Positions 39,263 to 42,595 of a DNA stretch of 64,000 bases are shown piece by piece. This DNA is from an uncultured Pseudomonadota bacterium (GTDB lineage: Bacteria > Pseudomonadota > Gammaproteobacteria > Steroidobacterales > Steroidobacteraceae), in contig CAMLGF010000009.1 in the NCBI GenBank assembly GCA_946479515.1, positions 1 through 64,000 of the forward strand, read 5' to 3'. Made by a program: the position numbers and the translations under genes. Position 1 is the first letter of the stretch; every line of letters starts with the position of its first letter. Under the pieces are notes generated by a model. The model had not been told where the DNA came from, did no database searches, and was given only the letters and a program-made list of their open reading frames with translations.

Positions 39263-40417
39263 TCAATCCGGCACCAAGCTCTGACGGTCGATGTTGCGCG
39301 CATCGGTGGTGCCCGTCAGCGCCATGCTGATCTCGAGTTCCTTGCGAATGATGTCCAGGGCGAGCGCGACACCGGCTTCGCCATCCGCGGCGAGGCCGTA
39401 CAAAAAGGCCTTGCCGATGAGGCAGGCGCGCGCACCCAAGGCGAGGGCTTTCAATACGTCCTGGCCCGAGGTGATGCCGCCGTCCATGAGCACTTCGCAG
39501 CGCCCGGAGGCGGCGGCGACCACGGCGGGCAGCGCGGAAATGGTCGAGGTCGCGCTGTCGAGCTGACGGCCGCCGTGATTGGACACGACGATGGCGTCGA
39601 CCCCCGCCGACGTCGCGAGGCGGGCGTCGTCCGCATCGAGCACGCCTTTCACCAGCAGCTTGCCGGGCCAGCGCTCGCGCACCCAGGCGATGTCTTTCCA
39701 GGTGATGGCGGGGTTGAATTGCCGGCCGACCCATTCCGACAACGCGCCGATACCGTCCCTGGGGAAGAAGGCGGCCAGATTGCCGAGAGTCCGTCGCCGC
39801 CCTAACAACACGCCGCCGAGCCAGCGCGGCCGGCGGACGATTTCCCAGGCATTGCGCGCGGTGAGTCGTGCAGGCACCGACAGGCCGTTCTTCGGATCGC
39901 GCCGTCGCAGCGCCTGCAGGGGCAGGTCCAGGGTCAACATCAACGCCGAACATCGTGCCTCGCGCGCCCGCAAGATCAGTGCCTCGTTGAAGCCGCGGTC
40001 GCGCATGAGATACAGCTGGAACCAGAATGTGCCTTCGACGGCCGCGCGAACGTCTTCGAGCGCGCAGATCGACATGGTGCTCAGGCAGAAGGGGATGCCG
40101 GCACGTTGCGCGGCGCGCGCCGCATGGATCTCCCCGTCGCGGTGGAAGAAGCCGGTGAGTCCGGTGGGCGCGAGCGCCACGGGCAGGTTCCAGTGCTCGC
40201 CGAGCACAGTCGTGCCCACGGACAGCCGCGATACGTCGACCATCACCCGTTGCCGCAGCCGAACGGCACGCAAGTCGTCGCGATTGCGGTGCCAGGTCAG
40301 CTCGTCATACGAGCCGCGATCGATGTAGTCGAACAGGGCGCGCGGAATGCGCCGGCGAGCGAGGGCTCGCAGGTCTTCGATGGAGTTGGAGTGGGGAAGG
40401 GGGGAAAATGGGGACAT
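39263..40417 (-). CDS. FMN-dependent alpha-hydroxyacid oxidase/dehydrogenase (LldD-like)
   Basis: A 384-residue FMN barrel enzyme oxidising an L-2-hydroxyacid. The catalytic His is in VVSNHGGRQLD; other family motifs are RALFDYIDRGSYDE, APTGLTGFFHRDGE, DGGITSGQDVLKALALGA and KAFLYG. L-lactate is the likeliest substrate, given the neighbouring hydrolase expected to release lactate; mandelate or glycolate cannot be excluded. The ATG and first six codons (MSPFSP) come from the inverted-repeat element at 40401-40513, which also supplies AAGGGA 8 bases upstream. No other in-frame ATG precedes the conserved domain. Confidence 0.88.
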   Translation of the reverse strand: MSPFSPLPHSNSIEDLRALARRRIPRALFDYIDRGSYDELTWHRNRDDLRAVRLRQRVMVDVSRLSVGTTVLGEHWNLPVALAPTGLTGFFHRDGEIHAARAAQRAGIPFCLSTMSICALEDVRAAVEGTFWFQLYLMRDRGFNEALILRAREARCSALMLTLDLPLQALRRRDPKNGLSVPARLTARNAWEIVRRPRWLGGVLLGRRRTLGNLAAFFPRDGIGALSEWVGRQFNPAITWKDIAWVRERWPGKLLVKGVLDADDARLATSAGVDAIVVSNHGGRQLDSATSTISALPAVVAAASGRCEVLMDGGITSGQDVLKALALGARACLIGKAFLYGLAADGEAGVALALDIIRKELEISMALTGTTDARNIDRQSLVPD

Positions 40418-40513
40418 GCCTAATTTCCCTTGTCACATTCGACCGGTCGACGACAGAACCGAGCTGCTTCGCCGAATGTGACAAGGGAAATTAGGCATGT
40501 CCCCATTTTCCCC
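40401..40513. repeat. 113-bp inverted-repeat element (41-bp perfect arms)
   Basis: The left arm (40401-40441) and right arm (40473-40513) are perfect 41-bp reverse complements around a 31-base loop. Each arm, read outward, contains AAGGGA, eight bases, then ATG and codons for SPFSP. So each end carries a Shine-Dalgarno and start codon pointing away from the element. It encodes no protein and sits between the FAH-hydrolase stop and the oxidase. It resembles REPIN- or MITE-like non-autonomous elements; whether it recurs elsewhere in the genome cannot be seen. Confidence 0.9.
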
Positions 40514-40538
40514 TCTCTCCCCCCTCTCCCCCTTCCCT

Positions 40539-41384
40539 CTAAGCCGCCGCGACCGCCTGTCGCTGCGTGCCGAGCTTCTCGATGCCCAGCTCCATGACAT
40601 CGCCGGGATTCAGGAAAACGGGCTCGGGCTTGATACCCATTCCGACGCCCGGCGGAGTGCCGGTGGTGATGACATCACCGGGGTGCAGGCTCATGAACTG
40701 CGACAGATAGCTCACCAGGAATGCCGGCTTGAAAATCATCGTGCGCGTCGAGCCGTGCTGACGGCGCACGCCGTTGACGTCCAGCCACATCGACAGGTCC
40801 GCGGGATCGCCGACCTCATCGGCCGTCACCAGCCAGGGTCCGATCGGGCCGAAGGTGTCGCAACCCTTCCCCTTATCCCACTGCCCACCGCGTTCCAGCT
40901 GGAATGCCCGCTCGGACAGATCGTTGACGACGCAGTACCCGGCGATGTGCCGTGCTGCCTCGGCCTCGCTCACATAGCGAGTGACGCTGCCGATGACCAC
41001 GCCGAGTTCGACTTCCCAGTCCATCTTGGTGGAACCGCGCGGTTTCAGCACCGTGTCGTTCGGGCCGACGATGCAGCTCGTGGCCTTCATGAACACGATG
41101 GGCTCGGCCGGAATCTTCGCGCCGGTTTCCGCGGCATGATCGGCGTAATTCAGGCCGATGGCGATGAACTTGCCCACGGCGCCGACGCAGGGCCCGATGC
41201 GCTCGCCCGCGGGCAGGCGCGGCAGCGAGGCAGGATCGAGCGCGCGCAGCTTCGCCAGCGAGTCGGGCGACAGCGCCGCGCCGGCGACGTCGGGAATCAC
41301 CCCGCCGAGGTCGGCGATGCCACCGTCGGCGAGCATCATGCCCGGGCGCTCCGCGCCCGCGGAACCAGCACGAATAAGTTTCAA
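40539..41384 (-). CDS. FAH-family hydrolase (2,4-diketo-3-deoxy-sugar-acid hydrolase-like)
   Basis: A 281-residue fumarylacetoacetate-hydrolase-fold enzyme. The catalytic/metal core is IGLNYADHAAETG, WEVELGVVIG, GKGCDTFGPIGPW and the C-terminal GDVITTGTPPGVGMG. Relatives cleave 2,4-diketo-3-deoxy-L-fuconate or -rhamnonate into pyruvate and lactate, or act on ureidoglycolate. The start is a TTG (41382-41384) with GGGAGG five bases upstream. It lies 23 bp after the large UxaA-like gene. The sugar assignment is inferred. Confidence 0.87.
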   Translation of the reverse strand: MKLIRAGSAGAERPGMMLADGGIADLGGVIPDVAGAALSPDSLAKLRALDPASLPRLPAGERIGPCVGAVGKFIAIGLNYADHAAETGAKIPAEPIVFMKATSCIVGPNDTVLKPRGSTKMDWEVELGVVIGSVTRYVSEAEAARHIAGYCVVNDLSERAFQLERGGQWDKGKGCDTFGPIGPWLVTADEVGDPADLSMWLDVNGVRRQHGSTRTMIFKPAFLVSYLSQFMSLHPGDVITTGTPPGVGMGIKPEPVFLNPGDVMELGIEKLGTQRQAVAAA

Positions 41385-41407
41385 TGAACCTCCCTCGTCG
41401 CGCCGCG

Positions 41408-42595
41408 TCAGGCCGCCGGCAGGCAGGCCGGCCCGATGGGCTCGAATTGCTTGTAAGTCAGGATGAATTCCTGGTGCCCCAGGGCTTCGGATTTCGACGG
41501 CTGCCCGGCGGCCACGCTCTTGACGAGGTCGAAGATCTCCCGGCCCACCTCGTCGAGCCCGGCGCCCCGCAGGATGCGACCCGCGTTGACGTCCATGTCC
41601 TCGGACATGCGCTCGTAGGTGTCCGGGTTGGCACACACCTTGATGACCGGCGAGATCGCCGAGCCCACCACCGAGCCGCGGCCGGTGGTGAAGAGGATGA
41701 GGTGCGAGCCGCAGGCGATCAGCTCGACGATCTCGGCGTTGTCGGAAATGTTGGGGAAGCCGAAGCGCGGTTCGCCATCGGGCACCACGTCGAGTAGATA
41801 GAGCCCGCCGCGCGGCGGTATGTCTCCCGGCTTGATCAACCCGCTGATGGGCGAGGAGCCGGACTTGGAGTAGGCACCCATCGACTTCTCCTCGAGCGTG
41901 GTCAAGCCGCCCTCGGCATTGCCGGGAGCGAAGCTGCCGTAACCCATGATCCGATAGTAGTTGGCCGCTTTCTCGACGCAGGCCTGGATTTCGCGTCCCA
42001 GCTCGGGCGTCACGGCGCGCGAGGCCATGACGCGCTCGCAGCCGATCAGCTCGCCGGTTTCCTCGAAGATGCAGGCCGTACCGTTCTCGATGAGCCAGTC
42101 GAAGCAGCGGCCAACCGCGGGGTTGGCGGTGATGCCGCTGGTGCCATCCGAACCTCCGCACACGGTGCCGACCACCAGTTCGTCGAGCGCCATGGGCACG
42201 GGCGTCTGCCGGGCGATCTCGGCGCGCATCCTCGCCACTCGCTCCAGGCCGGCGTTCAGCGTGCGGGTGGTGCCGCCGGTCTGCTGGATGACGAGCAGGT
42301 CCACGGGACGGCCGCTGGCCGCGATCGTGCGGCGCAGCTCTTCGCGGTTGAAGCTCTCGCAGCCGAGCGAGATGAGCAGCACGGCTCCCACGTTGGGGTG
42401 CGTGCACAGGCGCTTCATCATCTCGAGCGCGTATTGGTTCGGATAGCAGCCGGGAAACCCGATCAGGTGCACGTCATCGGCGCCGGATTTCTGCACGATG
42501 AGCCGCGACACATGGTGCGCGCACTCGACGAGATAGGCGACGGCCACCACGTTGCGGATGCCCTTGCGGCCGTCTTTGCGGAGAAAGCCCTGCAT
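41408..42595 (-). CDS. UxaA/GarD-family sugar-acid dehydratase, large (C-terminal) part
   Basis: A 395-residue protein matching the C-terminal catalytic part of altronate/galactarate dehydratases: GRKGIRNVVAV, HLIGFPGCYPNQ, LISLGCESFN, VCGGSDGTSGITANPAVG and ISPVIKVCANPDTYERM. It dehydrates a sugar acid to a 2-keto-3-deoxy acid. The N-terminal SAF part is a separate gene one base upstream (42597), as in Campylobacter fucose loci where UxaA is split. The substrate is unknown; fuconate or altronate are candidates. Confidence 0.88.
   Translation of the reverse strand: MQGFLRKDGRKGIRNVVAVAYLVECAHHVSRLIVQKSGADDVHLIGFPGCYPNQYALEMMKRLCTHPNVGAVLLISLGCESFNREELRRTIAASGRPVDLLVIQQTGGTTRTLNAGLERVARMRAEIARQTPVPMALDELVVGTVCGGSDGTSGITANPAVGRCFDWLIENGTACIFEETGELIGCERVMASRAVTPELGREIQACVEKAANYYRIMGYGSFAPGNAEGGLTTLEEKSMGAYSKSGSSPISGLIKPGDIPPRGGLYLLDVVPDGEPRFGFPNISDNAEIVELIACGSHLILFTTGRGSVVGSAISPVIKVCANPDTYERMSEDMDVNAGRILRGAGLDEVGREIFDLVKSVAAGQPSKSEALGHQEFILTYKQFEPIGPACLPAA

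Follow-up and report, generated by a model that had tools for sequence, protein, structure and literature searches.

In the window, by which we mean the whole stretch of 64,000 nucleotides analysed here, the space between an FAA hydrolase gene and a gene of the FMN-dependent alpha-hydroxyacid oxidase family is occupied by a 113-bp palindrome that overlaps the first codons of the oxidase gene (Table 1). This arrangement raises the question of whether a repeated element can provide a protein-coding gene with its start codon and, if so, whether this has taken place more than once. The DNA is probably that of a gammaproteobacterium close to Steroidobacteraceae, MAGs called Steroidobacter and the isolate Povalibacter uvarum being among its nearest genome matches and some of the nearest proteins being labelled Steroidobacteraceae bacterium. 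The two arms of the palindrome are perfect reverse complements (41/41 positions) and, as reported in the preliminary description of this DNA, each of them carries, read outward, AAGGGA, 8 bases and an ATG, with MSPFSP opening either frame. Among perfect inverted repeats with arms of 14 bp or longer and at most 300 bp between them, it is the only one in the 64-kb window. Folded as DNA, the 113-bp element reached -53.4 kcal/mol in comparison with a mean of -14.0 for shuffled sequences (sd 2.8, n=200), and single arms folded little better than their shuffles (z -0.4 to -1.2). The right-hand start had been said to run into a short non-gene; we also take its frame for no gene, because it runs antisense through the FAA hydrolase gene, but short it is not, being open for 296 aa (40497-41387).

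Table 1. Features of the palindrome and its surroundings (positions of the window; strand "." for features without orientation)
Feature	Position	Strand	Basis or remark
FMN-dependent alpha-hydroxyacid oxidase / L-lactate dehydrogenase family gene, 384 aa	39263..40417	-	PF01070 E 1.9e-134; PRK11197 above cut-off
Start codon ATG of oxidase, probably donated by the element (MSPFSPLPHSNSIEDLR)	40415..40417	-	sole usable start; element-free relatives have their own
Whole palindromic element, REPIN-like member of a repeat family linked to a Y1 transposase	40401..40513	.	arms, fold; family in relatives
Left arm, 41 bp	40401..40441	.	reverse complement of right arm
AAGGGA, ribosome-binding-site-like, 8 bases before ATG	40426..40431	-	read from sequence; putative
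Loop, 31 bp	40442..40472	.	between arms
Right arm, 41 bp	40473..40513	.	reverse complement of left arm
Mirror-image ATG, opening a frame antisense to the FAA hydrolase gene that is taken for no gene	40497..40499	+	
25 bp from FAA hydrolase stop to element	40514..40538	.	purine-rich on - strand
FAA hydrolase gene, directly upstream of element; start TTG at 41384 assumed	40539..41384	-	PF01557; 84% identity and conserved gene order in G097 and G098
Altronate/galactarate dehydratase-type gene, first of three	41408..42595	-	PF20629, PF04295

Analysis of the 5' region of the oxidase gene confirmed that the ATG of the left arm is its only usable start codon. Upstream of it, no in-frame ATG, GTG or TTG occurs before a stop codon at -15, and the later in-frame candidates (TTG at codon 49, GTG at codon 58 and ATG at codon 59) fall within the FMN_dh domain, which begins at residue 20. 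The window oxidase has L-P-H-S-N-S where M-x-V-I-N-S is usual, and its native start codon has thus disappeared. The element had also been placed inside what looked like one transcription unit, and it does lie within one gene cluster, since the order altronate-dehydratase-type gene, FAA hydrolase, oxidase is kept in two relatives (genomes G097 and G098), with a STAS-type ORF beyond the oxidase. Identities to the window are 90 and 92% for the altronate-dehydratase-type protein in G097 and G098, respectively, 84% in both for the FAA hydrolase and 72% in both for the oxidase. In neither relative is there an element between the FAA hydrolase and oxidase genes, and both oxidases have a start of their own, ATG in G097 (ATG GAC GTC ATC ACC AGT ATC) and probably GTG in G098. 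Altogether, 30 oxidase loci were scanned with one motif, 11 of which had no match to it and were left out of that reading; no oxidase more than 72% identical to that of the window was found in the 396 genomes sampled from the order.

Searches of related genomes revealed that the palindrome belongs to a multicopy repeat family. Among the first 13 genomes searched, a match was found in G001 only, the reversed control matching once, in G003. G001 is a MAG whose oxidase is 71% identical to that of the window, and it carries near-copies (GGGGACATTCCTAATTT), mostly as inverted pairs. Within the family to which G001 belongs, GGGGACATNCCTAATTTCC with at most one mismatch gave matches in 10 of 217 genomes and its reversed control gave none; a looser end pattern matched 4 to 58 times in each of these ten, with a single match for the reversed control (in G181), and the ends are mostly arranged as inverted pairs. 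The outward-end consensus of 202 collected ends reads GGAAAnnAGG[A/C]ATGTCCCC[A/T]TT, in a collection that favours ATGTCCCC by design, as the fetched loci had been chosen by ATGTCCCC-containing patterns among the matches listed; three slightly different patterns applied to the same fetched loci yield 182, 191 and 202 ends. GGGGACA is present at most 400 bp upstream of 157 of the 202 (median 74), and a GTAG-type tag (GTAG or CTAC within -30 to +12) accompanies just 8. A 20-base exact element pattern had no match in viral contigs. In a 369-genome sample of the class one strict pattern gave no match and its reversed control one, a zero that says little because this pattern misses G001's own forms of the element. 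Genome G165, rich in subfamily GGAAAATAGGAATG, has three element copies within 10 kb (L186, G165:C41:40800-50400). The kind of element is already known, and the known systems are considered at the end.

The preliminary description had looked to a RAYT or other transposase with matching ends, and ATGTCCCC ends were indeed found on both sides of a Y1 gene in G001, G096, G097 and G181. These four were the only ones with inverted ATGTCCCC ends on both sides among 24 Y1 loci examined; 19 had none, and at the G165 locus one such end lies 0.8 kb away. Other GGGGACA-type ends occur on both sides of two of the 19, L204 and L209, and L204 (G097:C1:3328184-3328534 and its flanks) contains a second Y1 transposase of G097 between inverted GGGGACAGATCTATTTT ends, a related-looking repeat with no ATG. 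Y1_Tnp genes are present in 8 of the 10 family-bearing genomes. In G001 one element pair lies on each side of the sole Y1_Tnp gene found, in G096 and G097 the transposase-flanking ends belong to a type that is also frequent in the rest of the respective genome, and in G181 all copies among the matches listed are located within about 2 kb of the transposase. Pfam Y1_Tnp scored above its cut-off at all five loci (those of G001, G096, G097, G181 and G165), and the best NCBIfam match of the five transposases was REP_Tyr_transpos (NF047646), at 66.6 to 79.6 bits, the RAYT cut-off of 80 being reached by none of them.

Genes starting inside other copies of the element were also found, namely nhaA in G097 and slyX in G098 and G096. 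For NhaA of G097 the element ATG is the first in-frame start (MSPFSLTDTFNRF), the next one being a GTG at codon 14, whereas the NhaA of G098, 71% identical, has no element and reads MAPMTLSAAFLKF; at the DNA level, ATG ACC CTC in G098 stands against the element end ATG TCC CCT TTT TCG CTG in G097. SlyX starts at the element ATG both in G098 (MSPTDRLD, with a TTG 18 bases upstream that is also inside the element) and in G096 (MSPSDPSDRL). The SlyX of G097, 80% identical to that of G098, is element-free and has kept its native ATG, with ...CCCC ATG ACT GAA CGC in G097 vs the element end ATG TCC CCA ACT GAC CGC in G098. The elements of G098 and G096 share their site, which follows the same terminator-like hairpin in both genomes, and their ends differ (CAGGAATG and CGAGGAATG, respectively), each being a common type in its own genome; on sequence grounds, this would reflect two insertions, or a single old one with subsequent homogenisation. 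Nested inside the slyX element, between its outer ATGTCCCC ends, is another palindrome, GGGGACGCGCC...GGCGCGTCCCC (L173, about 2020-2133, and L249, about 1542-1639). Taken together, the element-free orthologues, the multicopy nature of the repeat and the other genes that start in its copies support the earlier proposal that the element supplied the start and first residues of the oxidase. In the relatives compared, neither an absence of the repeat nor an unchanged oxidase start without it, both named earlier as results that would contradict the proposal, was seen.

Several further candidates were not accepted as clean donations. In G180, pheA (MRNVPVSEE...) has an in-frame ATG 66 bases upstream, and the N-terminal extensions of its relatives are long and different; a regulator-like gene of the same genome (MEMRNVPIS...) has a later Met available. 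For a DNA-glycosylase-type gene of G165 (MSPSPAIRYLSRDPVM), alternative starts exist at codon 16 (ATG) and at -84 (TTG). The element before pheA (L199:1983-2060 in G180) may be read through in frame, possibly from an ATG overlapping the stop codon of the preceding gene, which would give a PheA with an element-encoded N-terminal piece. Some of the genes not counted as clean donations are putatively GcvT, Adk, Pth and a P-type ATPase.

Quantification of the reading frames next to the ends revealed no preference for the frame of the element ATG. For 43 of 191 ends a downstream coding frame was detected, distributed over frames 0, 1 and 2 as 13, 15 and 15, and for 142 none was; 6 more, at contig edges, were unscored. 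Because of this even distribution, the ends appear to lie near gene starts regardless of frame, the apparent donations being cases in which the frame fits and the native start has been lost, and selection for in-frame insertion was dropped as an explanation. Twelve frames are open from the element ATG. Four of them (the window oxidase, NhaA and the two SlyX) are without a nearby ATG; in the other eight, a later ATG is present and could be the actual start. Frames with such a later ATG in L097, L164, L175, L190, L195, L248, L274 and L275 were not counted as clean donations.

RNA folding with 200 bases upstream and 60 downstream of the start as input gave, for the element starts, AUG unpaired probabilities of 0.00 for the window, 0.00 for NhaA of G097, 0.00 for SlyX of G098 and 0.03 for SlyX of G096, in comparison with 0.29, 0.42 and 0.49 for the element-free starts of the G097 oxidase, the G098 NhaA and the G097 SlyX, respectively; for the element-free GTG start of the G098 oxidase the value is low too (0.01). 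Since its start lies in a perfect hairpin, expression of the window oxidase is probably reduced, or needs the hairpin to be opened. According to the predicted fold, initiation would probably either be weak or require RNase cleavage or ribosomes that have just translated the upstream gene. The description of the repeat as carrying a ready-made translation start has to be qualified accordingly: the start is encoded, as claimed, but the predicted RNA folding buries it, and the 191 ends show no preference for its frame. For these two reasons, start donation looks like a recurrent by-product and not like a general design of the element.

N-termini of metagenomic homologues were examined in the best 120 of 8000 for the oxidase (P0001 being the window's own protein), the best 120 of 8000 for the FAA hydrolase, and the best 120 of 437 for SlyX (query P0121). 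Element-type N-termini were found in 14 of the best 120 oxidases (MSPF in 8, M[RK][ND]VP in 4 and MG[TS]VP in 2), or in 17 if two MSPI and one MGTFL are added, and in 19 of the best 120 SlyX sequences (M[RK][ND]VPIS in 15, comprising MRNVPIS in 13 and MRDVPIS in 2, plus MSPF in 2 and MSPT in 2). In the best 120 FAA hydrolases, which served as an adjacent-gene control, every N-terminal pattern scored 0/120. The commonest frame 0 peptide of the genomic ends is MSPF (76/202), and among the 32 ends with a second ATG the commonest frame +2 peptide is MRNVPIS (13/32), with MRDVP and MGSVP also present. Oxidase P0021 begins MGTFLNS, which would agree with an element end read on its inward strand (ATGGGGACATTCCT); starts might have a third origin there.

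Element-type labels are scattered over the oxidase and SlyX trees. On a tree of oxidase bodies with the N-termini removed, the 14 labels need 9 changes, 3 of them forced by well-supported branches, and MSPF alone needs 5, with 1 forced in this way; on the SlyX tree (59 columns), the 19 labels need 13 changes (12-15 in bootstraps), 6 of them forced. The labels are more clustered than expected from shuffling, 0 of 500 shuffles being as low, so some element-type N-termini share descent, and for the oxidase one early gain followed by many losses is, strictly speaking, still conceivable. Three sets of SlyX bodies, each identical over 59 residues, mix element-type and native-type starts, as in MRNVPISSQRLDAI and MSQRLDAI. 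We infer from these protein sequences that the element-type N-termini of the metagenomic oxidase and SlyX proteins probably derive from the element.

Our main reading, to which we assign a probability of about 0.8, is that a Y1-linked, non-autonomous mobile repeat replaced the start of the oxidase gene, that the element ATG is now the start of the gene, and that such replacements recur. The 113-bp palindrome would be a copy of a non-autonomous repeat made up of two inverted copies of the ends found around a Y1 (RAYT/TIRYT-like) gene in relatives, and the Y1 enzyme would move or copy this pair, as proposed for REPIN/RAYT systems. Having come between the FAA hydrolase and oxidase genes, the element would have displaced the oxidase's own start region, and the element ATG may have taken over either because a few bases were lost on insertion or because the native start decayed later. 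In the cell, the oxidase would begin at the ATG of the element end (MSPF...), and the hairpin would set the level of translation of the adopted gene. A working frame can survive the replacement thanks to the ATG within the terminal motif GGnATGTCCCC; some subfamilies have a second one, two bases out of frame with the first (MRNVP...).

A less favourable outcome for the host gene is that the element broke it, the native start being lost and the element ATG unused, with the gene silent or translated from a rare start codon (CTG 16 or a non-standard one). The wholly paired start region of the predicted mRNA would agree with this, and so would the perfect arms, which suggest a young or recently homogenised copy. 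We nevertheless consider it unlikely, as the oxidase ORF is unbroken and scores positively as coding sequence, and the closest homologue of the window oxidase, 92% identical, likewise starts MSPF, so the arrangement probably outlived a split; moreover, SlyX proteins starting MRNVPIS or MRDVPIS have bodies that differ by up to 20% and are still full length. The opposite view, that the element ATG was selected for starting translation, the repeat spreading partly by landing as a start or its hairpin acting as a translational switch, draws on the recurrence at the same genes and on the near-invariance of the ATG within the collected ends (96% A, 97% T and 100% G). This invariance is partly built in because the collection patterns favour ATGTCCCC, and the absence of frame bias together with the many ends without a downstream coding frame, some others lying at contig edges, makes such selection quite unlikely in our view.

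It might also be argued that the element has no part in the metagenomic N-termini of the MSPF and MRNVPIS kinds and that these reflect ordinary variation or the choices of gene callers: these starts are predictions of the source databases, known from proteins alone, and MKDVP (two oxidases) and MGTVP (one) are absent from the peptides of the 202 genomic ends. Such a coincidence appears very unlikely, given that MRNVPIS matches over seven residues the commonest frame +2 peptide of the ends, that the FAA hydrolase control is empty and that the Met at the native position is gone in all 14 oxidase and all 19 SlyX sequences. Somewhat better than even odds may be given to a wider claim, namely that start codons in two frames within the ends of this palindrome repeatedly displace native starts, apparently at the same genes in separate lineages, whereby host N-termini are turned over and translation is placed under a strong hairpin, and that starts appear to switch even among identical SlyX bodies. 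If this is true, new N-termini and translational control would arise from repeat ends that recurrently replace starts, the repeat could be used to annotate start sites in these genomes, and near-identical proteins with native and element-type starts offer a natural experiment.

With regard to known systems, a literature search by title and the beginning of the abstract, covering few subscription journals, retrieved no description of recurrent start-codon donation by repeats of this kind. Small palindromic repeats are already known to affect their neighbours through promoters and RNase sites: the Correia elements of Neisseria (PMC2649163) are, like the present repeat, small inverted repeats able to control the next gene, but they act via promoters, IHF and RNase III, and start codons go unmentioned in the corresponding passages of that paper. 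With REPINs and RAYTs (Bertels and Rainey 2011, PMC3116915; Nunvar et al. 2010, PMC2817692) our family shares multicopy inverted doublets of short repeats, a single hairpin formed by the whole and the occurrence of the same repeats around a transposase gene; it differs, as far as the relevant parts of those papers go, in the missing GTAG tag (present near just 8/202 ends, as GTAG or CTAC), in the weak folding of a single arm and in transposases that score just below the NCBIfam RAYT cut-off. The kind closest to it is that of the TIR families of TIRYT genes, or TIRtrons, described by Di Nocera et al. 2013 (PMC3733652), in which inverted repeats flank a Y1/HUH transposase gene and some families are repeated, with many dimers; most TIRYTs fall in one subclass of RAYT-like proteins (PMC6006769). 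Some TIRs carry a GGGGWSAS motif, to be compared with GGGGACAT here, which agrees at 7 of 8 positions and differs in the last base, in a motif that is not strictly defining (PMC3733652). According to the same source, ORFs next to GTAG REPs often receive their stop codon from the REP termini, most of the REPs located at predicted N-termini of three species may be non-coding, and expression is reported for R. conorii proteins that carry RPE-1 N-terminally; its passages concerned with TIRtrons do not describe native start codons being replaced, as seen here. The Rickettsia palindromic elements (reviewed in PMC10969869) are likewise palindromic repeats that add residues to host proteins; unlike the element of this study, which has replaced a start region, they insert within the ORF itself and are translated in frame as part of it.
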